From Candidatus Accumulibacter similis (GTDB taxonomy: Bacteria; Pseudomonadota; Gammaproteobacteria; Burkholderiales; Rhodocyclaceae), in contig CP054595.1 of the NCBI GenBank assembly GCA_013347225.1, positions 3,964,415-4,028,414 of the forward strand: a stretch of 64,000 bases of DNA, written 5' to 3'. Shown here one piece after another: positions 15,091 through 55,531 of the stretch. Each line of letters starts with the position of its first letter. Position 1 is the first letter of the stretch. Below the pieces are notes generated by a model. That model made no database searches. It worked only from the letters and a program-made list of their open reading frames with translations, and was not told the DNA's origin. Both the position numbers and the translations under genes were made by a program.

Positions 15091-15116
15091 GTGCCTGATT
15101 GGAGAGACTGCCGCCG

Positions 15117-18100
15117 ATGAATGCCCCGACTGATTTCGACATCGGCCCGCTGACCTGGGTCAAGAGCGAGATTGACCTCGCACTCGAACGTGCCGAGCAG
15201 GCGCTGCAGGGTTTCCCTGCCGAAATCGCTGACGATCAGGGAGACCGCCAGCAGATCAGGTTCTGCCGAACCCACCTGCACCAGGTGCAAGGCGCGCTGA
15301 CGATCGTCGGCCTCGACGGCGTCACGCAGGTGGCAGAGGCGATGGAGTTCCTCCTCGAAGCGCTGGAGAAGCAGGAACAGCCGGTCGATGCCGCAGCGGT
15401 CAGCCTCGTCGATCGCTCCCTGACGGCTCTCCGACATTATCTCGACGACCTGATCAGCGGCCAGCCCAATCAGCCCCTGCGCCTCCTGCCGCTCTATCGC
15501 GAGTTGCAGGTGGCGCGCGGTCAGAGCCGGGTGATAGCGAGCGATCTCTTCTTTCCCGACCTGCGCGTGCGCCCCCCGGCGCGCGGCGCCACAGCACAGC
15601 AGCTCGAACGCGGCGAGTTCGAGCACCGTCTGCGACAGCAGCGGGCGCATTTCCAGCGCGGCCTGCTGGCTTGGTTGCGTGCGCCAGGGGAGCGTGCCGG
15701 CGTAGCCGAGATGCTGAGTGCCGTCAAGCGTATCGAGGCCATCCAGGAGATGCCATCGGCGCGCGCGTTCTGGTGGGTCGCGACGGCTTTCCTGACCGCC
15801 CTCGGCGAAGGCGCCCTACCCGCGGATGCCGATGCCAAGCAGCTGTGCACTCGCATCGACCTGCAGACCCGGCGCCTGCTGGAGGGTTCGAGCAACGTCG
15901 CCGAACGCCTGATGCGCGACGCGCTGTATCTGGTCGGCATCGCCCGAAGCAACCATCGAACGGTGCAGAAGGTCAAGCAGGCCTACCGGCTGCCGGCCCT
16001 GATCGCAGCTGAGGTCGCCCTGGCACCGGTCGCCGAGGATGCGGTCCGGCGCCGTCTGCGCGACGCGATCACCGCCACCGAAGAGGCGTGGAACCGCTTC
16101 GCGGCAGGTACCACGCAGGCGCTGCCCGTCTTCCGTGCCAACGCGGCAACGCTTGTGGCCGTCGCCGAGGAGGCCGGACAACCCGACTTCCTGCGCCTGA
16201 CCCGGGCGATCGCCGAGGTCGCCAGCTTCCTCGGGCAGTCGCCTGTGCGCCACAGCGAAGCGCTGGCGATGGAGAGCGCGACGGCCATCCTCCTTGCCCA
16301 GAATGCACAGGAGAACCTCCAGTACCTGGACAGCAGCTTCACGCACCAGGTCGACGTGATGGCCGCCAGGATCCACGACTGCATCGCCGGCACACCGCTG
16401 CCGCCCGAGTCGGAACTGCCGGCTCTCGACGAAATGTCGCGCCAGGCGCAGGAAAAGATGCTCGTCGGCCAGGTCGCGCGTGAGATCACGAACAACCTCG
16501 CGCAGATCGAGCAGGTGCTCGACGGCTTCTTCCGCGACGCCGACAGGCGAGGTGATCTGGTACAGCTCGATGCACCGTTGCGGCAGGTCATCGGTGCCCT
16601 GACGATGATGCGCCATGAGGGCGCGGTCGCCGTCCTGCGTCACTGCACGACGGAAGTCGCACGCTTCTCGGATCCCGGTTACGAACCACAACAGGCCGAC
16701 TTCGAACGTTTGGCCGAGCAGCTGTCGCTGATCGGTTTCTTCGTCGACGCCATGCAGACGGGCGCCGCGGACTTCGAGGCTTTCGTCAGCCGCATGCGGG
16801 CGAGTGGTGAGCCAGAGGAGACCGAAGCCGAAGTGGCAACGGTCGAGCAGGAGGTCGAGCAGCAGAAGCGTGAAGCACACGCCTTGCTCGTCGCACTCAA
16901 GGAACAGCCGAGCGATGCGGCGCTGCGGCAGGAGGTGGCGCAGAACCTGACGGCACTGCAGAAGGATGCCGATCTGGTTGCCGACAAGGAACTGGGACAA
17001 CAGGCGAAGCATGTGCTCTCGGCGCTGGCTGCCGGTGGCGATGCCGCACCACAGATCGACGCGGCGATGGCGACCCTCAAGCCCGAAGTGCCGCTCGCGC
17101 CACCACCCTCCGCAGAAACCATCCAGCTCTCGCAGGCGACGGCGGAGGAAGTAGACGCCGAGTTGCTGGGGATCTTCCTCGAGGAGGCGGACGAGGTCCT
17201 CGGCAGCATCCACGACAACCTGCAGCTGCTCGAGCAGAAGCCGCACGACGTCGAGGTTCTGACCGCTCTCCGGCGCTCGGTCCACACCCTCAAGGGCAGC
17301 GGGCGGATGGTCGGCCTCAAGGAGCTGGGAGAGGCGGCGTGGTCGGTTGAGCAGGTCCTCAACCTCTGGTTGCGACAGGAGCTGGAGGTGACAACGCAAC
17401 TCCTCGACCTCCTCGGGCAGGCCTATGCAGCATTCTCCGCCTGGGTCGAGCATCTCAAGACCGGGCTCGGAGAAGTGCCCGACATCCGCCGCATGTGTGC
17501 ACTGGCGACAGCCCTGCGCGAACGCGACGATGCCGTACTGGGCGTTGCCGGTGGCACCGTCGCCACGCCGGGTGTCGCCGAAGCACCCGCAGGCGAGGCG
17601 GCGCCGACGACAGCCGCCGTCGCGATGGAGCCTGCGGCCACGCCGGAGCGTACGCGCCTGTCGATCGCACCGGCATTGGTCGGCATCTTCCGCGATGAGG
17701 CAGCGACCCACCTCGCCACCCTGCAGCGCGAGTTCGCTCTGCTCGAAGGCGACCTGACGGCACCGTCGAGCCATGAAATGTACCGCGCCGCGCACACCCT
17801 CGCCGGCATCGCGGGAACGGTCGGCCTGGCAGTCATCAAGCATCTCGGCCACGCACTGGAGCTGGCACTCGTGCGACGGAACCATGCCGCCGGTCGCGAC
17901 AGTCTCGAGGCCATCGAGACCGTCCGGCAGGCGATCGCCGAACTGGCACTGATGCTCGCCGACGTGTCCCGGGAACATGAGCCCGAGGCGATCCCCAGCC
18001 TGCTCGCGGCCCTCGATTCGCTGTACCCGGAGCTGGCCGTCGACGAGCGCCTCGAGGCGGCGGCGGCCGCGGACGAGGAACAGGTGGCCGCCGATCTCGC

Positions 18101-20483
18101 CCAGGCGGCGCCGATCGTCGTGCCGGCACCGCCGATCGCCCCGGCGATCGCCGCCGCCCCGGCGGAAGTGCCGCTCGTCCAGGACGAGTTCGACGAACAG
18201 CTGCTGCCACTGTTCATCGAGGAGGCGATTGACCTCAACCAGAACATCGCGGCACAGTTGCGCGCCTGGCGCAGCAACCCCGCCGATCCCGAGCCGGTAC
18301 GGCGGCTGGCACGCCTGTTCCACAGTCTCAAGGGCAGCGCGCGCATGGCTGGCGCGATGAATCTCGGCAACCTGACGCATGCCATCGAAACACGCATGAA
18401 GGAAGCGCAGGACGCCGGCGCCGCACCGATCGAGCTGATCGACGACATCGACAATGCTTTCGACGTCATCATCCAGCTTGTCGAACGTCTGCAGCGCGGC
18501 GAAATGGCCGATACGCCGCTCGAGATTTCCGACGCGGCAGCCAGCGAACTGGTCGGCGACGCCGCCACCGATGCCGCTGCAGACGCGGCCGAGCAAGCGG
18601 TCAGCGCCGTTCCTCGCGCCGAGGGGCCGGAAGCGGAAGCCGAGACTGCCGCGCAGCGGACGAACCTGCGCGTGCGCGCCGACCTCATCGACCGGCTGGT
18701 CAACGAAGCCGGCGAACTGTCGATCGCCCGTTTGCGCATCGAAGGCGAAATGCGAGGGATCAAGGCTTCGCTGCTCGACCTGACCGAGAACGTGATTCGC
18801 CTGCGCCGGCAGTTGCGCGAGATCGAGATTCAGGCCGAGTTGCAGATGCAGTCGCGCACCGCTGTCACCGACGAGCAGCACGCGGACTTCGATCCGCTCG
18901 AGTTCGACCGCTTCACGCGCTTCCAGGAACTGACCCGGATGATGGCCGAATCGGTGAACGACGTCGCCACCGTGCAGCAGAACCTGCTGAAGAACCTCGA
19001 CGACGCGAACGCGGCGATCATCGCCCAGGCCCGTCTGAATCGCGAGGTGCAGCAGGAACTGATGTCGGTGCGCATGGTCCCGTTCGCCAGCATTGCCGAT
19101 CGCCTGTACCGCATCGTTCGCCAGGCCAGCAAGGACACCGGCAAGCGGGCCAACCTGGAGATCCGCGGCGCGCAGCTCGAACTCGACCGCAGCGTCCTCG
19201 ACAAGATGCTGGCGCCACTGGAACACGTGCTGCGCAACGCTGTTGCGCACGGCCTCGAGGATGCGCCGGTGCGTCGGGCGAGGGGCAAGGCGGATATCGG
19301 CGAGATCACACTGACGCTGGTTCAGGAAGGGAACGAAGTCATCCTGTCGATCGCCGATGACGGTACCGGTCTCGACCTCGAACGGCTGCGCGAAAGAGGC
19401 CTCCGCTCCGGCCTGTTGCGCAGCGAGGATGCCGACAACGCGGAGCGGGTGATCGACCTGATCTTTGCCCCCGGCATCTCGACAGCCTCGCAGGTTTCCC
19501 AGCTGGCCGGCCGCGGCATCGGCATGGACGTCCTGAAGAGCGAGGTGACGAGCCTCGGTGGTCGCATCGAAGTCCTTTCCAGCGCCGGCCAGGGAACGAC
19601 CTTCCGGCTCTACCTGCCGCTCACGCTGGCCGTAACCAAGGCCCTGCTGGTGCGCTCCGGCAACCGCCATTACGCCATCCCGGCCGCCATGATCGAGCAG
19701 GCGCTCGACCTCAAGGAAAAGAGTCTGGCGCGAATCCGCGATGCTCGCGAGGCGGTCTGGACCGGCAACCACTACCCATTCAGCTACCTGCCACATCTTC
19801 TCGGCGAGCCGCAGGCGCTGCCCGAGAAGCACGTGCAGTACTGGGTTCTGCTGTTGCGCAGCGGCAGCAAGCGAGTGGCGCTGCAGGTCGACGAGCTGCT
19901 CGGCAACCAGGAAATCGTCGTCAAGAACATCGGCGCCCAGCTGGCGCGGGTGATTGGCATCGACGGCGCCACCGTCCTCGGCAACGGACAGGTCGTGCTG
20001 ATCCTCAACCCGATCGCCCTCGCCAGCCGCGACCGCCTGCCGCCAGCGGTGTCGCCGGTACCGACGGTACGACAGCCCCTGGCTGGCGATCGCAGCACGG
20101 CAACGGTGCCGACGATCATCATCGTCGATGACTCTCTGACCGTGCGCAAGATCACCAGCCGGCTGCTGGCACGCGAGGGTTACCAGGTGCTGACCGCCAA
20201 GGACGGCGTCGAAGCGCTCGAGCAGATGGTTGCCGTCGTTCCGGACGTGATGCTGGTCGATATCGAGATGCCGCGCATGGATGGTTTCGAGCTGACGCGA
20301 AACGTTCGCGCGGACAAGCGACTGGGAGCCGTGCCGATCATCATGATCACCTCACGGACGGCGGACAAGCACCGGCAGTACGCGCTCGAACTCGGTGTCA
20401 ATCATTATCTCGGCAAACCCTTCCAGGAGGACGAACTGCTGCGGCTGGTCAGCGGCCACGTCCGGGAACTGCGCCACGCTTGA
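15117..20483 (+). CDS. chpA: Pil-Chp hybrid histidine kinase ChpA/PilL
   Basis: A very large CheA-type kinase of 1788 residues. Hpt-like histidines are seen at about 55 (HLHQVQGAL), 723 (VHTLKGSGRM), 893 (AHTLAGIAGT) and 1069 (FHSLKGSARM); the first is degenerate. Dimerisation and HATPase segments follow (HVLRNAVAHGLEDAP; DDGTGLDLERL; GRGIGMDVL), then a CheW-like domain (about 1505-1630) and a C-terminal receiver (IIIVDDSLTV; phospho-Asp near 1715 in VDIEMPRMDG). ATG 15117 is preferred to an upstream TTG at 15099 because GGAGAGA at 15101-15107 is well placed. It ends the pilGHIJ-chpA operon, and its 3' end overlaps the photolyase 3' end by 35 bases on the other strand. Confidence 0.93.
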   Translation: MNAPTDFDIGPLTWVKSEIDLALERAEQALQGFPAEIADDQGDRQQIRFCRTHLHQVQGALTIVGLDGVTQVAEAMEFLLEALEKQEQPVDAAAVSLVDRSLTALRHYLDDLISGQPNQPLRLLPLYRELQVARGQSRVIASDLFFPDLRVRPPARGATAQQLERGEFEHRLRQQRAHFQRGLLAWLRAPGERAGVAEMLSAVKRIEAIQEMPSARAFWWVATAFLTALGEGALPADADAKQLCTRIDLQTRRLLEGSSNVAERLMRDALYLVGIARSNHRTVQKVKQAYRLPALIAAEVALAPVAEDAVRRRLRDAITATEEAWNRFAAGTTQALPVFRANAATLVAVAEEAGQPDFLRLTRAIAEVASFLGQSPVRHSEALAMESATAILLAQNAQENLQYLDSSFTHQVDVMAARIHDCIAGTPLPPESELPALDEMSRQAQEKMLVGQVAREITNNLAQIEQVLDGFFRDADRRGDLVQLDAPLRQVIGALTMMRHEGAVAVLRHCTTEVARFSDPGYEPQQADFERLAEQLSLIGFFVDAMQTGAADFEAFVSRMRASGEPEETEAEVATVEQEVEQQKREAHALLVALKEQPSDAALRQEVAQNLTALQKDADLVADKELGQQAKHVLSALAAGGDAAPQIDAAMATLKPEVPLAPPPSAETIQLSQATAEEVDAELLGIFLEEADEVLGSIHDNLQLLEQKPHDVEVLTALRRSVHTLKGSGRMVGLKELGEAAWSVEQVLNLWLRQELEVTTQLLDLLGQAYAAFSAWVEHLKTGLGEVPDIRRMCALATALRERDDAVLGVAGGTVATPGVAEAPAGEAAPTTAAVAMEPAATPERTRLSIAPALVGIFRDEAATHLATLQREFALLEGDLTAPSSHEMYRAAHTLAGIAGTVGLAVIKHLGHALELALVRRNHAAGRDSLEAIETVRQAIAELALMLADVSREHEPEAIPSLLAALDSLYPELAVDERLEAAAAADEEQVAADLAQAAPIVVPAPPIAPAIAAAPAEVPLVQDEFDEQLLPLFIEEAIDLNQNIAAQLRAWRSNPADPEPVRRLARLFHSLKGSARMAGAMNLGNLTHAIETRMKEAQDAGAAPIELIDDIDNAFDVIIQLVERLQRGEMADTPLEISDAAASELVGDAATDAAADAAEQAVSAVPRAEGPEAEAETAAQRTNLRVRADLIDRLVNEAGELSIARLRIEGEMRGIKASLLDLTENVIRLRRQLREIEIQAELQMQSRTAVTDEQHADFDPLEFDRFTRFQELTRMMAESVNDVATVQQNLLKNLDDANAAIIAQARLNREVQQELMSVRMVPFASIADRLYRIVRQASKDTGKRANLEIRGAQLELDRSVLDKMLAPLEHVLRNAVAHGLEDAPVRRARGKADIGEITLTLVQEGNEVILSIADDGTGLDLERLRERGLRSGLLRSEDADNAERVIDLIFAPGISTASQVSQLAGRGIGMDVLKSEVTSLGGRIEVLSSAGQGTTFRLYLPLTLAVTKALLVRSGNRHYAIPAAMIEQALDLKEKSLARIRDAREAVWTGNHYPFSYLPHLLGEPQALPEKHVQYWVLLLRSGSKRVALQVDELLGNQEIVVKNIGAQLARVIGIDGATVLGNGQVVLILNPIALASRDRLPPAVSPVPTVRQPLAGDRSTATVPTIIIVDDSLTVRKITSRLLAREGYQVLTAKDGVEALEQMVAVVPDVMLVDIEMPRMDGFELTRNVRADKRLGAVPIIMITSRTADKHRQYALELGVNHYLGKPFQEDELLRLVSGHVRELRHA

Positions 20484-45112: not shown

Positions 45113-45586
45113 ATGAGTCAACGTCCATTCAAGGTCCTCGGAATCCAGCAGATCGCCATCGGCGGTCCGGACAAGATGAAACTGCGTCAACTCTGGGTCG
45201 ACATGCTCGGCCTCGAAATCACCGGCAACTTCGTCAGCGAGCGCGAGAACGTCGATGAAGACATCGCCGCCATGGGCAAGGGCCCGTTCAAGGTCGAGGT
45301 CGACCTGATGCAGCCGGTCGACCCGGAGAAGAAGCCCGCCGTACATGCCACGCCGCTCAATCACGTCGGCCTGTGGATCGACGATCTGCCGCAAGCGGTT
45401 GAATGGCTGACGGCCAACGGCGTTCGCTTCGCACCGGGCGGAATCCGCAAGGGAGCCGCCGGCTTCGACATCACCTTCCTGCACCCGAAAGCCAGTGCCG
45501 AATTCCCGATCGCCGGCGAGGGCGTGCTGATCGAACTGGTGCAGGCACCACCCGAGGTCGTCGAGGCTTTCGCCCGCATCGCCTGA
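45113..45586 (+). CDS. VOC family protein resembling methylmalonyl-CoA epimerase
   Basis: A 157-residue vicinal-oxygen-chelate fold with two beta-alpha-beta-beta-beta units. The second half ([36 protein letters not shown]) closely follows methylmalonyl-CoA epimerase, supplying His and Glu metal ligands. The first ligand position, normally His in a DHIAIAV-type strand, reads QQIAIGG, so a Gln replaces it. Position 50 bases after malonyl-CoA decarboxylase suggests an acyl-CoA role. Glyoxalase or ring-cleavage functions cannot be excluded. Confidence 0.7.
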
Positions 45587-45599
45587 CCACCATGAGCAA

Positions 45600-45627
45600 C
45601 CGGCAGTCCCGCCCCGGGCACTGCCGG
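45600..45627. repeat. inverted repeat after the VOC gene
   Basis: CCGGCAGT (45600-45607) pairs with ACTGCCGG (45620-45627) around a 12-base GC-rich loop, 13 bases after the VOC stop. There is no T-run, so it is at best a Rho-assisted 3' end. Confidence 0.4.
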
Positions 45628-46011
45628 CTGCCCGCGACATCAGCCGGCGCCGCGATTGCGGCGCCCCCTGCGCACCGGCGGCAGCGTCCGGTCTTTTGCG
45701 CCGCCGGAGAATCCGCAAACCCAAGCCACGCCGCAACGATCCACTGCTTGCGCGCGCCGGCCTGAGTTGCCACTGACGCGGCCACAGGCGGAGGTGACGC
45801 CGCAGGCGACGACGCCCCCAACGGGCTCAGCCGTCAGCCGGGCGGCCTTGCCGTCACTGCCGCGGCTCGCTGGCGACAAGCCCGGGACAGCGGCTGCGTA
45901 GGCGCTGCCGGCGTGCAGCGGACGATTTCCCTCAAGTCCTCCTGCCTGCGGCCGTTGGTCTAAGCATCACGGTTGTCCTCGCCAGCAGACACTCCCCAGC
46001 ACACTGAGCCA
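45628..46011. other. non-coding gap before the signalling island
   Basis: This GC-rich stretch has no ORF with protein-like composition. Short frames here are Arg/Ala/Pro-rich and have no convincing RBS. A TTG at 45973 is in frame with the hemerythrin kinase but no RBS supports it. No tRNA, repeat or clear promoter was recognised. Confidence 0.5.
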
Positions 46012-49000
46012 ATGAACAGGATCGATTTTCTGCCTTGGGATGACAGTTTCGACACCAGCCTGCCGGAGGTTGACGGCCAGCACCGGCGACTGGTCACACT
46101 CATCAACGCCCTCGCCAGCCATGTCGCCTTCAGGACGAACATCCCGCAACTCGGCGAGATGTTCGATGAGCTCGTCAACTACGCCGTCTACCACTTCCAG
46201 ACCGAGGAGGCGATTTGGCATGAGTACCTTGCCGGCGATCAGTCCGAACGCGATCACCGGGTGACCCACGCCAGCTTCGTGCAGGAAGTGTCACGACTGC
46301 GCGCCCAGCAGGATGCGTGCCAGACGGCGCGGGCTGCCGAAGAGACCCTGGCTTTCCTGACACGCTGGCTGATCTCTCATATCCTCGAGAGCGACCGTTA
46401 CATGGCCTGCACCGTCGCGGCGCTGCGCACCGGCCTGTCACGCGAAGCGGCGCAACGGCACGCCAGCGCGGAAATGGCGCAGGGTGTGCGGACGCTGGCC
46501 GACATCGTCCTGTCGATCAATGCGACACCAGCCACCAACGCCCTGCACCTGATGTCCGAACTGGCCGAACTGCGGCAAACGCAGGCCGAACTGCAGCACG
46601 AGAGCGAGAAGAATCGGGCCTTGCTGCGCGCCGCCAGCGATGGCGTCCATGTCCTCGACGCGGTGGGCAACATCATTGAGGTCAGCAACTCCTTCTGCGC
46701 CATGCTCGGCTGCGCACGCGAAGAACTCGTCGGCAGCAACATGGCGTCCCGTGACGTACGCTTCGCCGACGGAGACGGATTGAGCAGGCTGCGCCAGGAG
46801 CTCGACAGTCCACAACGGCGAGTACTGCACACCCGCTACCGCCACCGGGATGGCAGCCTGATCGACGTCGATGTCAGCGGCGTGCCGGTGACGATCGAGG
46901 GGCAACGACTGCTGTTCTATTCCGCCCGAGACGTCAGCGAGCGCAAACAGGCTGAGAAACAACTGGCGGAGGAGCGTCAGCGCCTGGCGGACCAGCTTCG
47001 TTTCACCGCCCGACTGCTCAACACGATTCCCAATCCGGTCTTCTTCAAGGACGAGAACGGTCGCTACCTGGGCTGCAACACCGCCTTCGAGAAGTACGTA
47101 GGGATCGAGCGCCGCAACCTGATCGGTCGCACGATGCACGACATCGCCCCCGCCGCCCTCGCCGACCGGTATCTGGCCGCCGACCGGGCGCTGTTCGAGC
47201 AGCGCGGAACGCAGTCGTACCAGGCGCAGGTGCGTTACGCGGACGGCACGCTGCACGACGTCGTCTTCAACAAGGCGACGTTCAACCGGTCCGACGGCAG
47301 CCTGGGCGGACTGGTCGGCATCATGCTCGACGTCAGCGAACGCATGCGGATGGAACGTGCTCTGCAGCAACAGGCAGCGTTCACCGACGCCATCATCGAG
47401 GCGATGGGCGATGGGGTCGCCGTCTGCCACGAAATCGCGGCGCCACCGCTGGTCCGTTTCACGGTCTGGAACCCTGCGATGCAGCAGCTGACCGGCTACA
47501 GCCAGAATGAAGTCAATCAGGCTGGCTGGCAACGGGTGCTGCAGGTCGACGACGAACGGCAGGATGAGGCTTTGCGGCGTGCCAGGCGCATGCGCCGCGG
47601 CGACCACCTGCGCGGCGAGGAGTGGACGATCCGCCGCCGTGACGGCGAGCGGCGGACGCTGCAGGTGCACACGACCTTCGTCACGCCGCCTTCCGGCGGC
47701 GTACACCTGCTGCTGGTGCTGCGCGATGTCAGCGCGAGGAAGGCCGCCGAACAACTCGTGCGGCAGCAGCGCGACCTCGCGCAAAGCTACCTCGACACGG
47801 TACAAAGCCTGATGCTGGCGCTCGACTCCGAGGGTCGGATCACGATGATCAACCGCGCCGGTCGCGAACTGCTGGGCTACGGCGAAGGCGAGCTGCTCGG
47901 CAGGTGCTGGTTCAGCACCTGTCTGCCGCAACCGAAAGGACGAGAGCAGAGCCTGCCGTTCTTCCGGCGGATCATCGCCGGCGAACTCGATGCCAACCGG
48001 TCGAGTGAAGACAGCGTCCTTTGCCGCGACGGTTCGCAACGCCTGATCGGCTGGAAGACCGGCCCACTGACCGACGATGCCGGGCGCATCGTCGGCACGC
48101 TGAGCTCCGGTGCCGACATTGGCGAGCGCAAGGAAGTCGAGGCCGAACTCGATCGACATCGTGCGCATCTCGAAACCCTGGTCGCCCAACGGACTGCCGA
48201 GCTGTCGCTGGCCAAGGATGCCGCGGAAAGTGCCAACCGGGCAAAATCGGAGTTCCTTTCGAGCATGAGCCACGAACTGCGAACACCGATGAACGCCATC
48301 ATCGGCTTCGCCCAGATGCTCGAGTACGAAGGCGAGCTCAGCACCGACCAGCAGGACAGCGTACATGAGATCCTCCAGGCGAGCCGCCACCTGCTCGAGC
48401 TGATCAACGAAGTCCTCGACCTCGCCCGGATCGAATCCGGACGCATCCAACTGTCGCTCGAGACGACCGAGATCGCTGCCGTCGTCGACGACTGTCGGCA
48501 CCTTGTCGAGCCGTTGGCGCTGGCCCGCGGGATTACGCTGACGATCGATGTCCCTACCGGTGCAGCGGTGTACGCCGACCGGATCCGTCTCAAGCAGGCG
48601 CTCCTCAACCTGCTGTCGAATGCCATCAAGTACAACCGCGAGGGAGGCAGCGTTCACCTGGGCGTCGAACAGCAGCGCACGGCTGCCGGGCTGCGTCAGC
48701 GCTTCCGCGTCACCGACAGCGGCATCGGCATCGCTGTCGGGCGCCTTGGCGAGGTCTTTCAGCCCTTCACCCGCCTGCAGGGTGAAAACAGCGAGATCGA
48801 GGGCACCGGCATCGGACTGACGATCACCAAGCGCCTGGTTGAACTGATGGATGGTGAAATTGGCGCCGAGAGCGAGCCCGGAGTCGGCAGTCGCTTCTGG
48901 ATCGACATCCCGGCCGCCACCCTTGATCGCCAGGGCAGCACCACCGATCAGGGCCACTACGCGCAGGCGGTGATACCGGCGGCCAGCGATGAACGGCGCG

Positions 49001-49380
49001 TCCTGTGCATCGACGACAATCCGTCGAACCTCAAGCTGATGACGCAGATCCTCGGCCGTCACGGCAACCTTCGCCTGCTCACCGCGCATGCTCCGCAACT
49101 GGGAATCGAGCTGGCGCTGGCGCACCAGCCGCATCTCGTCCTGCTCGACATCAACATGCCCGGCATGGACGGCTACGAGGTTCTCGCGGTGCTCCAGCGC
49201 AATCCGGCGACCCGCCGCACGCCGGTCATCGCCATCACGGCCAATGCCCTCGCCCGCGACGTTGAACGCGGCCGCGCGGCAGGCTTTCTCGACTACATCA
49301 CGAAACCGATCGACGTCGCCGCCTTCCTGAACGTCGTCGACCAGGCGCTGGAGAAGCAACGATCGGCACGGCCGCAGTGA
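46012..49380 (+). CDS. hemerythrin-PAS-histidine kinase-receiver hybrid sensor
   Basis: A 1122-residue soluble hybrid kinase. Residues 1-135 are a bacteriohemerythrin with all seven di-iron ligands: His24, His61, Glu65, His82, His86, His123 and Asp128, so O2, NO or redox sensing is likely. About four PAS domains follow (roughly 195-320, 335-450, 465-580, 590-710). HisKA His754 is in MSHELRTPMNAI, then HATPase (LLNLLSNAIKYNRE; GIGLTITKRL) and a receiver with phospho-Asp1046 (LLDINMPGMDGY). ATG 46012 starts the hemerythrin fold. It is 16 bases before the next kinase gene. Confidence 0.9.
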   Translation: MNRIDFLPWDDSFDTSLPEVDGQHRRLVTLINALASHVAFRTNIPQLGEMFDELVNYAVYHFQTEEAIWHEYLAGDQSERDHRVTHASFVQEVSRLRAQQDACQTARAAEETLAFLTRWLISHILESDRYMACTVAALRTGLSREAAQRHASAEMAQGVRTLADIVLSINATPATNALHLMSELAELRQTQAELQHESEKNRALLRAASDGVHVLDAVGNIIEVSNSFCAMLGCAREELVGSNMASRDVRFADGDGLSRLRQELDSPQRRVLHTRYRHRDGSLIDVDVSGVPVTIEGQRLLFYSARDVSERKQAEKQLAEERQRLADQLRFTARLLNTIPNPVFFKDENGRYLGCNTAFEKYVGIERRNLIGRTMHDIAPAALADRYLAADRALFEQRGTQSYQAQVRYADGTLHDVVFNKATFNRSDGSLGGLVGIMLDVSERMRMERALQQQAAFTDAIIEAMGDGVAVCHEIAAPPLVRFTVWNPAMQQLTGYSQNEVNQAGWQRVLQVDDERQDEALRRARRMRRGDHLRGEEWTIRRRDGERRTLQVHTTFVTPPSGGVHLLLVLRDVSARKAAEQLVRQQRDLAQSYLDTVQSLMLALDSEGRITMINRAGRELLGYGEGELLGRCWFSTCLPQPKGREQSLPFFRRIIAGELDANRSSEDSVLCRDGSQRLIGWKTGPLTDDAGRIVGTLSSGADIGERKEVEAELDRHRAHLETLVAQRTAELSLAKDAAESANRAKSEFLSSMSHELRTPMNAIIGFAQMLEYEGELSTDQQDSVHEILQASRHLLELINEVLDLARIESGRIQLSLETTEIAAVVDDCRHLVEPLALARGITLTIDVPTGAAVYADRIRLKQALLNLLSNAIKYNREGGSVHLGVEQQRTAAGLRQRFRVTDSGIGIAVGRLGEVFQPFTRLQGENSEIEGTGIGLTITKRLVELMDGEIGAESEPGVGSRFWIDIPAATLDRQGSTTDQGHYAQAVIPAASDERRVLCIDDNPSNLKLMTQILGRHGNLRLLTAHAPQLGIELALAHQPHLVLLDINMPGMDGYEVLAVLQRNPATRRTPVIAITANALARDVERGRAAGFLDYITKPIDVAAFLNVVDQALEKQRSARPQ

Positions 49381-49396
49381 GCCCGGGACTGCACCG

Positions 49397-51781
49397 GTGA
49401 ACAGCGATACGACTGCAACGCGGCCCGTCGTCTGGTCGTTGAAGACGCGCATCACCGCCCTGACGCTGGCGCTGTTCCTGCTCGCGATCTGGTCGATGAC
49501 CCTGTACGCGACGCGCAGCCTGCGCCAGGACATGACGCACCTGCTCGGTGAGCAGCAGTTCTCGACGACCACGATCATCGCCGCCCAGCTCAACGCCGAA
49601 CTCGACACGCGGCTGCAGGCTCTGACACGGGTTGCCGGCGAGATTCCTCCTGCCCTGCTCGGCAAACGGGCGGAACTGCAGCGTTTCCTCGAACAGCGCA
49701 CGACGTTCCAGAGCCTGTTCAACGGCGGCACACGAGTCCGCGATGGCAATGCCCTGACGCTCGCCAGCGTTCCCTACCTGCCACAGCAGATCGGCAGCAG
49801 CTATGCCGACCGCGACTACATGGTCGCCGCCCTCAAGGAAGGCCGGACCAGCATCGGCCGACCGGTCATCAGCCGGACGCTCAACTCGCCAGCGATCGCT
49901 CTGGCGGCGCCCATCCGCGACCCGAACGGAAAGGTCATCGGGGCGCTAACCGGGGTCATCGATCTCGGCCGGCCGAACTTTTTCGATCGCATCGTCGACC
50001 AGCGCTACGGCAGGACCGGCGGCTACCTGATCATCGCTCCGCAGCATGCCCTGATCGTTACCGCAACCGACCGGTCGCGCGCGGTGTCGCCGATGCCCGT
50101 GGCCGGTGCCAACCGCAACCACGACCGTTTTGTTGGCGGCTACGAGGGTTATGGAGTCGCGCGCAATTCGCGTGGTGTCGAAGAACTGGCGGCGGCAAAG
50201 CGGATCGCGGTCGCCGGCTGGTTCCTCGTCAGCGTACTGCCGACGAGCGAGGCCTTCGAACCCATCGTCGCGCTGCAGGCGCGGGTGTTGCTGGCAGCGC
50301 TGGTTCTCAGCATGCTGGTTGGCACGGTCGGCTGGTGGTTCCTCAGCCGCATGCTGCGGCAGCAGTTCGCGCCCATGCTCGCCGCTTCGGCGCTGCTCGC
50401 CGACCTGTCGCAGACCACCGGCCCGGTGTTGCAACCGCTGCCGTCGGCAACTGCGGACGAGGTCGGGCAATTGATTCGCAGCTTCAACCTGCTCCTCGAG
50501 TCGCTGGCGCAGCGCGAGGCGGCCCTGCAGGAAAGCGAGCAGCACTACCGCACGCTGGCCGACGGCGGTTCGGCGCTGATCTGGAGCGCCGGGACGGATC
50601 GGCTGGCAACCTACTTCAACGAGCCATGGCTGCGCTTCACCGGCCGGTCACTGCAAGAACAGATCGCTGCCGGCTGGGCCGCAGGCGTTCATCCGGAGGA
50701 TCTCGATGGCTGTCGGCGCAGCTACGACAGCCACTTCGAGCGCCGCCAACCGTTTCGCCTGGAGTATCGCCTACGTGCCAGCGACGGCGAGTACCGCTGG
50801 ATCGAGGATGCCGGCAATCCACGCTTCGACCGAGCGGGCGAGTTCATCGGCTATATCGACTTCTGCCAGGACATTTCCGAGCGCAAACGGGCGACAGACG
50901 AACTCGAGCAGCACCGCCACCATCTCGAAACTCTGGTCGCGGCGCGAACGGCGGCGCTCGCCAGTGCCAAGGAAGCGGCGGAAGCCGCCAACGTCGCCAA
51001 GACCGAGTTTCTCTCGCGCATGAGCCATGAACTGCGAACGCCGCTCAACGCCATCCTCGGCTTCGGCCAGTTGCTCGCCATGCCTGGCGACGCCCCGCTG
51101 TCGGCCGAGCAGGCCGACAGCGTGCAGGAGATCCTTCGCGCCGGCCGCCACCTGCTCGAGCAGGTCAACGAAGTACTCGACCTGGCGCGCGTCGAGAGCG
51201 GGCGCATCGAGCTGACCCTCGCAGCCGTGCCCTTGGCGCCCGTCGTCGCCGAGTGCGTGGCACTCGTCCGCCCGCTCGCCGAGGCGCGCGGCATCCGCAT
51301 CGCGGCCGACATCGACGACGTGGCGCTGCTGGCTGACGCCACACGCCTGAAGCAAGTGATCCTCAACCTGCTCTCCAATGCCATCAAGTTCAATCGCGAG
51401 CAGGGCGCGATCCACATTGCCGGCACACGCAGCGACGGGCGGCTGCAACTCGCCGTCAGCGATACTGGCCGCGGCATCGCCAGCGAACAGTTGCAGCGCC
51501 TGTTCCAACCTTTCGAGCGACTGGCGTCGTCGTACGACGGAATCGAGGGCAGCGGTGTCGGGCTGGCGCTGACGCAACGGCTGGTCGAAGCGATGGGTGG
51601 CATGATCCGCATTGACAGTCAGGTCGGGGTCGGCAGCACATTCCGGTGCGACCTGCCGCTGGCGAACCTCGCCCACGAGGCTGCCGAGGCGACGGCGCAC
51701 GGAGTGGGGGCCAGTCCGGACACGCGCACTTCTTCGGGGCTGCCTCAGACGCTCGCCACCGACCGAATGGAGGAAGAATGA
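49397..51781 (+). CDS. membrane histidine kinase with double-Cache, HAMP and PAS domains
   Basis: A 794-residue sensor kinase. A first membrane helix (ITALTLALFLLAIWSMTLYA) precedes a periplasmic dCache domain (about 50-290), a second helix (LLAALVLSMLVGTVGWWFL), HAMP, PAS (about 385-505), HisKA with His544 (MSHELRTPLNAI) and HATPase (LNLLSNAIKFNRE; GSGVGLALTQRL). No receiver is attached. The start is GTG 49397 with a weak RBS. Its stop overlaps the start of the HD-GYP regulator (ATGA), so that protein is the likely phospho-acceptor. Confidence 0.88.
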   Translation: MNSDTTATRPVVWSLKTRITALTLALFLLAIWSMTLYATRSLRQDMTHLLGEQQFSTTTIIAAQLNAELDTRLQALTRVAGEIPPALLGKRAELQRFLEQRTTFQSLFNGGTRVRDGNALTLASVPYLPQQIGSSYADRDYMVAALKEGRTSIGRPVISRTLNSPAIALAAPIRDPNGKVIGALTGVIDLGRPNFFDRIVDQRYGRTGGYLIIAPQHALIVTATDRSRAVSPMPVAGANRNHDRFVGGYEGYGVARNSRGVEELAAAKRIAVAGWFLVSVLPTSEAFEPIVALQARVLLAALVLSMLVGTVGWWFLSRMLRQQFAPMLAASALLADLSQTTGPVLQPLPSATADEVGQLIRSFNLLLESLAQREAALQESEQHYRTLADGGSALIWSAGTDRLATYFNEPWLRFTGRSLQEQIAAGWAAGVHPEDLDGCRRSYDSHFERRQPFRLEYRLRASDGEYRWIEDAGNPRFDRAGEFIGYIDFCQDISERKRATDELEQHRHHLETLVAARTAALASAKEAAEAANVAKTEFLSRMSHELRTPLNAILGFGQLLAMPGDAPLSAEQADSVQEILRAGRHLLEQVNEVLDLARVESGRIELTLAAVPLAPVVAECVALVRPLAEARGIRIAADIDDVALLADATRLKQVILNLLSNAIKFNREQGAIHIAGTRSDGRLQLAVSDTGRGIASEQLQRLFQPFERLASSYDGIEGSGVGLALTQRLVEAMGGMIRIDSQVGVGSTFRCDLPLANLAHEAAEATAHGVGASPDTRTSSGLPQTLATDRMEEE

Positions 51782-52842
51782 ACGACCAACTGCGCTACCA
51801 GGCCCGCATCTTCATCGTCGACGACGAAGCAGCGAATCTGAAGCTGTTAGGCAAGATGCTCGCCAGCCGGAACTATCAAGACCTCGTGGCAATCCAGGAT
51901 CCGCGCCAAGTCCTCGATCGCTATCAGGCCAGGCGCCCCGACCTGATCCTGCTCGACATCAACATGCCGCATCTCGACGGCTATCAGGTGATGGCCCAGC
52001 TCAAGGCGCTCCAAGACCCGCTGCTGCCACCGATCGTCATCCTCACCGCCCAGCACGGACGCGAGACCCTGCTCAAGGCACTCGCTGCCGGCGCGCGCGA
52101 TTTCATCGGCAAGCCATTCGACATGGCCGAACTCCTGATGCGGGTCAAGAACCTGCTCGACGCCCACCTCGCGCACCGCATGCTGCATGATCAGAAGGGC
52201 ATTCTCGAAGAAATGGTGCGCATGCGCACCGACGAACTGAACCAGACCCGCCTGCAGGTCGTGCGGCGCCTCGGTCGCGCGGCGGAGTACCGTGACAACG
52301 AGACCGGCTACCACATCCTGCGCATGAGCGAGTACTCGGCCCTGCTTGCCAGCCACCTCGGCTGGAGCGACGGAGCCAGCGATCTGATGCTCAACGCCAG
52401 CCCGATGCACGACATCGGCAAGATCGGCATCCCCGACGCCGTCCTGCTCAAGCCCGGCCGTCTCGATGCGGACGAAACGGCGATCATCCGCACACATCCC
52501 GAGATCGGTGCCAATATCCTCGCCGGCGACGACTCCGAGCTTCTCCGCCTTGCCCGGACCATCGCCCTCACCCACCACGAGAAGTGGGATGGCAGCGGCT
52601 ACCCCGCTGGCCTGCGCGGCCTCGCGATCCCGCAGGCCGGGCGGATCGTCGCCGTCGCCGATGTCTTCGACGCACTGACCTCGAACCGGCCATACAAGAA
52701 AGCCTGGACGGTCGACGAAGCGGTGGCCTACGTCATCGACAACGCCGGCAGCCATTTCGATCCCGAGGTGGTGGATTGCTTCCGGCAACACCTGCCGGAG
52801 ATCCTCGCCATTCGCGATCAGCATCAGGAACCGCTCGATTGA
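51778..52842 (+). CDS. response regulator with HD-GYP c-di-GMP phosphodiesterase domain
   Basis: A 354-residue RpfG-like regulator. The receiver (1-120) has FIVDDEAANLKLL, phospho-Asp in LILLDINMPHLDGYQ, and Lys in DFIGKPFDMAE. A helical linker leads to an HD-GYP domain with the HD pair in MHDIGKIGIPDAVLLKPGRL and the GYP motif in HHEKWDGSGYPAGL, both complete, so c-di-GMP hydrolysis is expected. RBS AGGAAG precedes ATG 51778, which overlaps the upstream kinase stop by 4 bases. In a pilus-bearing organism its output probably affects attachment. Confidence 0.92.
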   Translation: MNDQLRYQARIFIVDDEAANLKLLGKMLASRNYQDLVAIQDPRQVLDRYQARRPDLILLDINMPHLDGYQVMAQLKALQDPLLPPIVILTAQHGRETLLKALAAGARDFIGKPFDMAELLMRVKNLLDAHLAHRMLHDQKGILEEMVRMRTDELNQTRLQVVRRLGRAAEYRDNETGYHILRMSEYSALLASHLGWSDGASDLMLNASPMHDIGKIGIPDAVLLKPGRLDADETAIIRTHPEIGANILAGDDSELLRLARTIALTHHEKWDGSGYPAGLRGLAIPQAGRIVAVADVFDALTSNRPYKKAWTVDEAVAYVIDNAGSHFDPEVVDCFRQHLPEILAIRDQHQEPLD

Positions 52843-52860
52843 CCGCAACCGGGGCCACCG

Positions 52861-54180
52861 ATGAAAGACACGCTTTGCCGCACCCTCCTCGTGCTCTGCC
52901 TGGTGCAGCCCGCCGTGGCTGCGTGCGCGCCCGATCGCCTGGCGCGCACGCGGCCAGCGGCCAACTGCGCGTCTGCATCTGGCCGGACTACTACGGGATG
53001 ACGTTCCGCAACCCGAAGACGCAGGAACTCAGCGGCGTCGATATCGACAACGCGCGCGAACTCGCCCGCGATTTCAACGTCGGACTGCAGTTCTTCGATG
53101 GTTCGTTCGCCCGCCTGATCGCCGATGTCTGCAGCGACCGCTGCGACATCGCCATGGTCGCCATCAGCATCACGCCGCAACGGCAGGAGAAGCTCCGCCT
53201 CGCGCAACCGCATCTCAGCAGCGACATCTACGCCATCACGACGAGGACCAATCGCCGCACCCAGGCATGCGCGGATATCGACAGGCCCGGGACGGTCGTC
53301 GTCGCCAGGGGGACCCTGCACGACTGAAGCAGGTGATCGTCAACCTGCTCTCGAACGCCATCAAGTACAACCGCGCACACGGCACGGTCCGCCTCGGCAG
53401 CACCGGCGCCGGCGATCGGCTGTGCTGCACCGTCAGCGACACTGGACGTGGCATCGCCAGCGAACACCTGCCGCGACTGTTCCAGCCCTTCGAGCGCCTC
53501 GAATCATCCTATGACGGGATCGAAGGCAGCGGTGTCGGGCTCGCCCTGACCAGGCGTCTGCTCGAAATGATGGCCGGGAGCATCGCCGTCGACAGCCAGG
53601 TCGGCGTCGGCAGCACCTTTCGCTTCGATCTGCCGCTCGCACCATCACCCGCCGAAACGGCGACGGGCGCAACCCGGAGCATGGCTACGCCAGTGGCCGC
53701 GGTTGTCGACACCGCGCCGCCGGCAGCCGACAGGCAGCGACGGTGGCGCCGCATCCTGCACGTCGAGGACAACGCGGCCAACCTGAAACTGGTGCGCAGA
53801 CTGCTCGGCGAACGCCCCGACGTCGAACTGGCCGACGCCGGCAGTGGCGAGCTCGGCGTCGCACTGGCCCGGGCAACCACCCCGGACCTCATCCTGCTCG
53901 ACCTCAACCTGCGGGCCAGGATGGGTTCGCCACCTTGGGCCGGTTGCAGGCGCACCCGTCAGCCGCGTCGATACCGGTGATCGCCATCACCGCCAACGGC
54001 ATGCGCGGCGACATCGATGACTACCGGAACCGCGGTTTTGCCGCCTGCCTGACCAAACCACTGGACGTGCGCCACTTCCGCGACGTTGTCGATCGCTTTC
54101 TCGACCGCGAGGCAGACGGCGCGGCACGACTCGAGCACGGGCCAGCCAATCCCACCGGCCCTGGCGCGCCACCAGTCTAG
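52861..54180 (+). pseudogene. remnant of a solute-binding-domain hybrid histidine kinase
   Basis: Three lesions can be read. (1) ATG 52861 encodes a signal peptide (MKDTLCRTLLVLCLVQPAVA), but a -1 type shift near 52930-52960 is needed to reach the family-3 solute-binding domain (LRVCIWPDYYGMTF, 52967 onward). (2) That domain is cut at 53311-53328, where the sequence passes directly into a HATPase (DPARLKQVIVNLLSNAIKYN), losing the rest of the sensor, the membrane helix and HisKA. (3) The receiver (RILHVEDNAANLKLV) loses frame near 53911, where LDLNL should continue as PGQDG; the rest is readable in another frame to 54180. It is paralogous to the upstream kinases and presumably non-functional. 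Confidence 0.85.
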
Positions 54181-54334
54181 TCTCCGTGTGGCGGCACGCG
54201 CGCGAGGCATCGACGGTGCCGGCGACGTCCTGTGCACCCGCCGTTGTCCCGCTCACCAGCGCTGCGCACGACTCCGCCGTGGCCCGTGGAACGTAGTCGT
54301 CGCCGCCACGAGCCCGGCCGAGCCAAGGGACGAT

Positions 54335-54386
54335 TGCACGTTTTGTGCAGAAAATCATTCATTTCTGCGGCAGAATGTACGATAAT
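54335..54386 (+). promoter_or_regulatory. ppk2 promoter region with nested inverted repeats
   Basis: TGCAC-GTTTT-GTGCA (54335-54349) is immediately followed, and overlapped, by GCAGAAA (54347-54353) paired with TTTCTGC (54362-54368). GATAAT at 54381-54386 is a likely -10, with TTCATT at 54358-54363 as a weak -35 (17-base spacing). The AT-rich palindromes overlap the -35, as expected of an operator. The binding protein is unknown; no obvious Pho box was recognised. Confidence 0.45.
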
Positions 54387-54415
54387 TGCCAGCCTGATGC
54401 TTTCGAGCGCAGGGA

Positions 54416-54435
54416 TGCGGGCAACTGTGCCCGCA
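54416..54435 (+). promoter_or_regulatory. hairpin in the ppk2 leader
   Basis: TGCGGGC and GCCCGCA form a 7-base stem with loop AACTGT in the predicted leader, 37 bases before ATG 54473 and upstream of the strong GGAGGAGGTG ribosome site. It could affect mRNA stability or translation. Confidence 0.4.
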
Positions 54436-54472
54436 CTGCACGATTGCAGTCAGCAACATGGAGGAGGTGTCA

Positions 54473-55531
54473 ATGAGTGAACTGCAACCCACCAACGAAG
54501 AAACCGTGACGGGCACAGCGAGTCCGGCGGCGAGCGTGAGCGTCGGCGAAGCGCCGGCGGCGCCGGCAGCAGTGGCTGTGCCGGCCAAGGCCGCGAGCAA
54601 GGCTTCGACACGAGCTGCCAAGGCTGCGGAGCAACAGACAGAGGCCAAGCCGGCGAAGGCGAAGGCCCAGAAGGTCGCCAAGGCGAAAGGCACCGCTGCA
54701 GCCGCCACGACGACGCCCGCCATCGGCCTGGGAGAGGTCGCACCCGTGCGCAAGCCGAAGATGGACACCAAGAACTACGAAAAGGCACTCTCCAAGCTGC
54801 AGATCGAGCTCGTCAAGCTCCAGGAGTGGATCAAGTTCAAGAAGCTCAAGGTGGTCGTCATCTTCGAGGGCCGCGATGCCGCCGGCAAGGGGGGCTGCAT
54901 CAAGCGCATCACCGAGAGCCTCAGCCCGCGCGTCACGCGCGTAGCTGCTCTGCCGGCGCCGACCGACCGCGAGTCGACTCAATGGTATTTCCAGCGTTAC
55001 GTGCAGCACCTTCCGGCCGGCGGCGAAATGGTCCTCTTCGACCGCAGCTGGTACAACCGGGCCGGTGTCGAGCGCGTGATGGGCTTCTGCACTGAAGAGG
55101 AGTACCGCGAGTTCCTCCGCACCTGCCCGGAATTCGAGAGAATGCTGGTGCGCAGCGGCATCATCCTGATCAAGTACTGGTTCTCGGTCAGCAACGAGGA
55201 GCAGGAGCGCCGCTTCCAGAAGCGCATCTTCCATCCCGAAAAGCACTGGAAGCTGAGCCCGATGGACCTGCAGTCGCGCGCCCGCTGGGTCGAGTACTCG
55301 AAGGCGAAGGATGCGATGTTTGCGCACACCGACATCAAGCAGGCGCCGTGGTACGTGGTCAACGGTGACGACAAGATGCGCGCCCGCCTGAACGTCATCA
55401 CGCATCTGTTGAACATGATCGATTACGAGGACCTGACGCCCCAGCCGATCGTCCTGCCGCCACGCCAGGAAGAGGGTGGCTACGTGCGCCCGCCGATCTC
55501 CGACCAGACCTTCATTCCCGAAATCTACTGA
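54473..55531 (+). CDS. ppk2: polyphosphate kinase 2 with Ala/Lys-rich N-terminal tail
   Basis: A 352-residue PPK2. Walker A is in GRDAAGKGGCIKRI near residue 135, and the lid/Walker B blocks are FDRSWYNRAGVERVMGF and RRFQKRIFHPEKHWKLSP. Its single-domain architecture suggests a class I enzyme that makes NTP from NDP and polyphosphate, or the reverse. Residues 1 to about 92 are a disordered Ala/Lys/Thr-rich tail resembling histone-H1-like repeats, absent from typical PPK2. ATG 54473 is chosen over 54458 because GGAGGAGGTG (54460-54469) serves it. A clear terminator follows. Confidence 0.93.
   Translation: MSELQPTNEETVTGTASPAASVSVGEAPAAPAAVAVPAKAASKASTRAAKAAEQQTEAKPAKAKAQKVAKAKGTAAAATTTPAIGLGEVAPVRKPKMDTKNYEKALSKLQIELVKLQEWIKFKKLKVVVIFEGRDAAGKGGCIKRITESLSPRVTRVAALPAPTDRESTQWYFQRYVQHLPAGGEMVLFDRSWYNRAGVERVMGFCTEEEYREFLRTCPEFERMLVRSGIILIKYWFSVSNEEQERRFQKRIFHPEKHWKLSPMDLQSRARWVEYSKAKDAMFAHTDIKQAPWYVVNGDDKMRARLNVITHLLNMIDYEDLTPQPIVLPPRQEEGGYVRPPISDQTFIPEIY

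Follow-up and report, generated by a model that had tools for sequence, protein, structure and literature searches.

A hemerythrin-PAS hybrid histidine kinase of apparent two-part ancestry, paired with a predicted c-di-GMP phosphodiesterase in Candidatus Accumulibacter similis

What does a histidine kinase that carries a hemerythrin domain respond to, and which protein receives its output? Accumulibacter experiences alternating anaerobic and aerobic conditions during phosphorus removal, and the question is raised by a gene, here called HK1, located in a 64,000-nucleotide stretch of the Candidatus Accumulibacter similis genome (contig CP054595.1, positions 3,964,415 to 4,028,414 of the forward strand; hereafter, the window). 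The HK1 open reading frame lies on the plus strand and extends from a TTG at 45973 or an ATG at 46012 to position 49380. The ATG aligns with a methionine in all six orthologues from the genus, which are distributed over six of 28 genus genomes, and the protein counted from this codon consists of 1122 amino acids.

HK1 (46012–49380) begins with a bacteriohemerythrin domain of four helices (46012–46428, + strand; model residues 1–139), identified by Pfam, NCBIfam, a structural model, and fold matches. Two linker helices seen in the model (residues 144–157 and 159–198; 46429–46605, +) and conserved in a 30-row alignment, A1, lead from the hemerythrin to the first of four PAS regions (about residues 199–715; 46606–48156, +), recognized by Pfam and by NCBIfam TIGR00229 in four stretches. 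The transmitter contains a HisKA domain with the phosphoacceptor His754 (48241–48441, +) and an HATPase_c domain (48577–48918, +), followed by a receiver with Asp1046 (49000–49338, +). The corresponding Pfam spans are residues 19–131 (Hemerythrin), 744–810 (HisKA), 856–969 (HATPase_c), and 997–1109 (Response_reg). The HisKA histidine, the N and G boxes of the HATPase, and the receiver aspartate place HK1 among the hybrid histidine kinases, and the Pfam scan thus bears out the preliminary description of a hemerythrin fused to about four PAS domains, a kinase, and a receiver. No membrane segment is predicted in HK1, where no 19-residue hydropathy window exceeds 1.6, in contrast to the neighboring kinase HK2. 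The Pfam scan of HK1 returned no Hpt domain and no heme or FIST domain.

The amino-terminal domain possesses the complete bacteriohemerythrin ligand set of five histidines, one glutamate, and one aspartate, formed by H24, H61, E65, H82, H86, H123, and D128; a direct count from the ATG at 46012 reproduces exactly the numbering given in the preliminary description. The domain scores 44.2 bits against Pfam Hemerythrin (PF01814; cut-off 25.3), and the first 199 residues of HK1 score 98.4 bits against NCBIfam TIGR02481 (cut-off 51.75) and 96.4 bits against the bacteriohemerythrin model NF033749 (cut-off 84). An AlphaFold2 model computed from 30 sequences (mean pLDDT 82) adopts a four-helix hemerythrin fold. 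DcrH-Hr, the hemerythrin domain of the Desulfovibrio vulgaris chemoreceptor DcrH, is the best solved match by profile search (3.1e-25) and the best structural match to the model (Foldseek TM by target, 0.85; VIA-align Z, 17.5–17.8), followed by bacteriohemerythrin 4xpx. Family scores, ligand conservation, and predicted fold together give good support to the earlier proposal that HK1 carries a functional di-iron hemerythrin, which we treat as a prediction.

Is this domain the sensor, or does it accompany sensors located elsewhere in the protein? Strong matches to HK1 residues 1–199 (at least 63% identity) occur in six of the 28 genus genomes, and while the hemerythrin identity of the orthologues to the window HK1 drops to 63%, the seven ligands, His754, and Asp1046 stay identical in all six. 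Several hemerythrin substitutions are tolerated, and the linker is fast-evolving (median dN/dS among the six orthologues: 0.29 for the hemerythrin domain, 0.43 for the linker, and 0.06 for HisKA). The higher rate of the hemerythrin relative to the kinase core, like the presence of four PAS regions, would suit a scenario where sensing falls to the PAS domains and the hemerythrin is a passenger that serves for dimerisation or scavenges oxygen. We consider this scenario very unlikely, given that the seven ligands are invariant in a domain where nearly half of the positions vary (71 of 131 invariant) and that the module, which is shuffled among kinase, GGDEF, and HD-GYP outputs, retains them in all 80 named relatives; the scan pattern used to collect these relatives itself demanded the motif around H123, so conservation of that residue is biased, and the other six ligands are free of this bias. 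Six of the ligand columns in alignment A1 show no variation, and the H86 column is nearly invariant, with a gap in one row (L028). Ligand retention of this extent is far beyond chance. With the di-iron domain taken as a sensor, the main signal may still enter through the PAS domains.

The sensor module is common. Among the 80 named loci that encode it, the outputs comprise 37 kinase motifs, 32 GGDEF, and 2 HD-GYP, and nine loci display neither, four of which are interrupted by a contig end. A tree of the sensor module requires eight changes of output type. The A. similis genome, a single contig of 5,039,009 bases, contains 11 hemerythrin places, including a second hemerythrin hybrid kinase (L063:4505-7522, C1 at about 2.346 Mb) that also carries a receiver plus an HPt place, and a hemerythrin fusion of the chemoreceptor type (L067).

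Two genes follow HK1 on the same strand. HK2 (49397–51781, +), separated from HK1 by 16 bases, encodes a dCache-like region (Pfam dCache_1, below cut-off), two hydrophobic segments, a PAS domain, HisKA, and HATPase. The transmitters of HK1 and HK2 are mutually nearest in the genome (58% identity, 266 bits), the next match reaching 39% and 152 bits. The HK2 gene overlaps by seven bases a response regulator (51775–52842, +) composed of a receiver and an HD-GYP domain. The regulator scores 117.7 bits against Pfam HD_5, and its receiver motif and the catalytic HD and HHExxxGxGYP motifs are intact, which makes it a predicted c-di-GMP phosphodiesterase. Outside the genus, regulator orthologues are found at 28 places among 395 family genomes, at 49–77% identity. 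The HD[IV]GK motif is retained in 26 of 28 regulator orthologues, the GYP motif in all 28, and the receiver motif in 27.

The proximity of HK1 to this regulator led to the earlier suggestion, based on gene order only, that HK1 acts upstream of it. A comparison across the family supports this suggestion. All 28 regulator places outside the genus were counted, and in 26 of them a kinase scores above 190 bits against the HK1 transmitter; in 24 of these loci the kinase is directly adjacent to the regulator on the same strand. The control consisted of 20 loci with other receiver-HD-GYP genes of the genus, drawn from 41 such matches, and a kinase of this kind was present in one of the 20. The two regulator loci that lack the kinase are L236, whose sequence ends 492 bases past the regulator, and L253, a second regulator copy in genome G147. 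The pairing of kinase and regulator is therefore supported by comparative sequence evidence that goes beyond adjacency. In eight loci of other genera (L234, L247, L248, L250, L251, L252, L254, and L259), a single HD-GYP regulator has two kinases of this family close by, a situation also seen in the window, and an arrangement of several kinases per regulator thus looks recurrent.

The phosphate could nevertheless take another path. HK1 carries a receiver of its own and lacks an HPt domain, and ten HPt places exist in the genome, as would be needed if phosphate passed from HK1 to its own receiver, then to a separate HPt protein, and on to another regulator, with the HD-GYP regulator serving HK2 only. 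We judge this relay improbable, as most regulator-linked kinases of other genera are also hybrids and are often the sole family kinase beside the regulator; a receiver in HK1 is consequently no argument against the pairing. If HK1 does serve the HD-GYP regulator, phosphate may go first to the receiver of HK1, because the kinase carries one; the ten HPt places could divert some of it elsewhere, and the regulator may respond chiefly to HK2. A hybrid kinase adjoining a receiver-HD-GYP regulator is also found in RpfC-RpfG, where the kinase, RpfC, is membrane-bound and includes an HPt domain. HK1 lacks both the HPt domain and the membrane segments, and on Pfam and hydropathy it falls outside the RpfC type.

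The regulator-linked kinases also bear on the origin of HK1. We compared two sets of proteins: 34 regulator-linked kinases from 26 loci, picked at more than 190 bits to the HK1 transmitter, and 45 other hemerythrin kinases that were not score-selected. The latter comprise 13 from the family genomes and 32 named ones, which derive from the 36 named loci (among the 80) with a HisKA motif after exclusion of four from Accumulibacter; identical sequences (L047/L173 and L045/L171) are counted twice in the sets. Against HK1 residues 745–970, the regulator-linked kinases score 181–292 bits, a range whose lower bound is partly set by the selection, versus 114–171 bits for the hemerythrin kinases. Against residues 1–199, all 45 hemerythrin kinases score 61–228 bits and none of the 34 regulator-linked kinases yields a significant match. 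A hemerythrin domain is found in none of the 34, and the sensors of the nine that were scanned with Pfam are PAS, GAF, dCache-like, receiver, or HPt domains.

In a transmitter tree, HK1, HK2, and HK3 (a third kinase of the same type, present in some relatives) group with the 34 regulator-linked kinases and split from the 45 hemerythrin kinases across branches with SH-aLRT support of up to 100; the trees are of a quick kind and came with long-branch warnings. Nesting of HK1 within either of two hemerythrin-kinase groups, picked after viewing the tree, was rejected (p = 4e-42 and 1.9e-5). In a coarser AU test, a topology that puts HK1 and all 45 hemerythrin kinases on one side of a branch was not rejected (p = 0.57), which fits a basal position of HK1 in the regulator-linked family and stops short of proving that it nests there. 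In 80-residue windows along HK1, the hemerythrin kinases are favored until about residue 360 and once more at 441–560, the result is tied or weak at 361–440 and 561–720, and the regulator-linked kinases are clearly favored from about residue 731; windows of this length give no position for the joint between sensor and kinase. The coiled coil that precedes HisKA looks nearest to those of hemerythrin kinases and was not used as evidence of ancestry, because HK2 carries a similar one. Since the sensor end of HK1 matches the hemerythrin kinases and its transmitter matches the regulator-linked kinases, we conclude from sequence comparison that HK1 is probably of two-part ancestry, uniting a widespread hemerythrin/PAS sensor array with the kinase type that serves this HD-GYP regulator. 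Either gain of the sensor or exchange of the kinase end may have produced this arrangement.

How would the hemerythrin influence the regulator? We hold with moderate confidence that HK1 is a cytoplasmic redox- or O2-responsive sensor kinase that sets the phosphorylation of the downstream HD-GYP regulator and, through it, the hydrolysis of c-di-GMP. O2 or the redox balance of the cell would set the oxidation state of the di-iron pair. That state, or alternatively the binding of a small molecule, would alter the hemerythrin bundle, and this change would travel through the two linker helices and the PAS array to HisKA. The altered kinase output would raise or lower phosphorylation of the regulator's receiver, and c-di-GMP would be degraded or spared as a result. 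HK2, through its dCache region, and HK3 in relatives would feed other signals into the same regulator. We favor redox or O2 over NO as a first guess because two described hemerythrin c-di-GMP enzymes follow the redox state of their iron, according to the available text of PMC9388753 and PMC8846402. Omics data from Accumulibacter, as far as the available part of PMC6446978 describes them, record a hemerythrin gene that is up in anaerobic stages, when FNR is active; this may be a gene other than HK1.

Detection of NO by the di-iron site, in place of O2 or redox, would tie denitrification to c-di-GMP in the way that NosP does via NosK and NosR, where NO sensing is linked through a kinase to a regulator of the receiver-HD-GYP type (PMC12570481, available part). 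The nearest NCBIfam model to our regulator is indeed NosR (NF053512), at 159.9 bits; this score is far below the cut-off of 400 and leaves the regulator outside the NosR family. HK1 also lacks a heme or FIST domain, and the hemerythrin c-di-GMP enzymes described in the available parts of PMC9388753 and PMC8846402 answer to iron redox state, so we regard NO sensing as unlikely. The NosP-NosK-NosR system shares with the HK1 locus a gas sensor, a kinase, and a receiver-HD-GYP regulator, gas sensing being a prediction for HK1. It differs in having a separate heme sensor protein, a kinase with no recognized sensor, and a degenerate NosR motif, as described in the same source; at the HK1 locus, the putative di-iron sensor belongs to the same polypeptide as the kinase, and the regulator has intact HD-GYP motifs.

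With redox or O2 sensing as the preferred reading, the closest relatives in design are other hemerythrin fusions. DcrH has the closest solved hemerythrin domain and the same set of seven ligands, but its hemerythrin is C-terminal and its output is that of a chemoreceptor (PMC9388753, in part), whereas HK1 bears an N-terminal hemerythrin on a kinase. In Bhr-HD-GYP of Ferrovum sp. PN-J185 and Bhr-DGC of Vibrio cholerae, an N-terminal hemerythrin controls c-di-GMP, as proposed for HK1; in these proteins, the available text places the enzyme in direct fusion with the hemerythrin (PMC9388753, PMC8846402), whereas at the HK1 locus a kinase stands between the sensor and the HD-GYP enzyme. Bhr-66 of Methylomonas denitrificans FJG1 combines an N-terminal bacteriohemerythrin with PAS-like folds, is proposed to be an O2-sensing two-component part, and has a response regulator histidine kinase and a polyphosphate kinase in its neighborhood (PMC12607906, available part). 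Its likeness to HK1 is one of description: Bhr-66 is itself a prediction, from a gene of 1785 bp that is far shorter than HK1.

HK1, HK2, and the regulator co-occur in six of the 28 genus genomes and, in some of them together with HK3, make up a cassette. HK3 follows in four of the six (L120, L121, L122, and L123) and is missing in L126; it is intact in L120, L122, and L123, and shortened near residue 993 in L121. In the window, the regulator is followed by a solute-binding (SBP_bac_3) gene of which a deletion has left the 5' part (52861–53323, +) and by an HK3 remnant with HATPase and receiver in a broken frame (53321–54204, +), both identified by Pfam and locus comparison. Relative to L120, a deletion of about 3.1 kb joins the start of the solute-binding gene to the end of HK3, with a three-base overlap at the joint.

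The cassette is flanked on the left by a glyoxalase_4 family gene (45113–45586, +; Pfam), which we take to be mce from its position next to malonyl-CoA decarboxylase, and on the right by polyphosphate kinase 2 (ppk2; 54458–55531, +; Pfam and NCBIfam). The interval between the two genes (45587–54457) is the insertion site, filled by the cassette in five of the 28 genus genomes, where mce and ppk2 lie 7.5–12 kb apart. In 19 of the 28, the spacing is 205–1084 bases and the cassette is absent there; all these distances were read by hand from match tables. Genome G207 has a gap of 5.4 kb and its cassette on another contig, mce and ppk2 are not neighbors in G217 and G211, and neither gene was found in G210. 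Over 10.8 kb, the cassettes of G207 and G205 share 93.8% identity. Because the mce and ppk2 proteins of G207 are more distant from those of the five genomes with the cassette at this site, the near-alike sequences suggest that the cassette has been transferred between Accumulibacter genomes.

Part of this picture is already known: hemerythrin signaling fusions have been recorded in genome surveys, and hemerythrin kinases are common in databases. The characterized fusions named in the available part of PMC9388753 are only a chemoreceptor, a c-di-GMP enzyme, and an ATPase. In the open PMC literature, we found no biochemically characterized hemerythrin histidine kinase, and none that was biochemically tested is described in the available text of PMC9388753, PMC4919030, PMC12607906, PMC3770913, or PMC13401364. 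Three points read from genome comparison would be new: the conserved pairing of this kinase type with an HD-GYP regulator, a two-part origin of HK1, and a cassette that was inserted whole. Tentatively, HK1 might be viewed as a natural graft in which a hemerythrin/PAS sensor array was joined to a kinase whose dedicated partner is an HD-GYP protein. The fusion would then have a defined c-di-GMP output and would sit in a portable cassette, carrying one phosphodiesterase and up to three kinases, that moved between Accumulibacter genomes. At this locus, a hemerythrin kinase comes with a partner that can be identified and an output that can be measured, so two or three proteins would suffice to test directly how the di-iron domain signals to the kinase. 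If the proposed mechanism is true, Accumulibacter has a means of coupling O2 or redox state to c-di-GMP.

Promoter and terminator scans returned nothing useful. FNR-like sites were considered and set aside: the window contains 27 two-mismatch matches against seven expected, an excess that probably reflects coding bias, and none of them lies in the segment before HK1 (45587–46011). The ppk2 gene next door was likewise dropped as evidence of a link to polyphosphate, because mce and ppk2 neighbor each other in genomes without the cassette. In G216, a genome in which HK1 was not found, L124:9058-10896 has the appearance of a cassette remnant, with parts of HK2 and the regulator and a shortened stretch between them. 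Upstream in the window, an open frame of 1794 residues (15099–20483) contains four HPt places and looks CheA-like, presumably belonging to a type IV pilus chemotaxis system.
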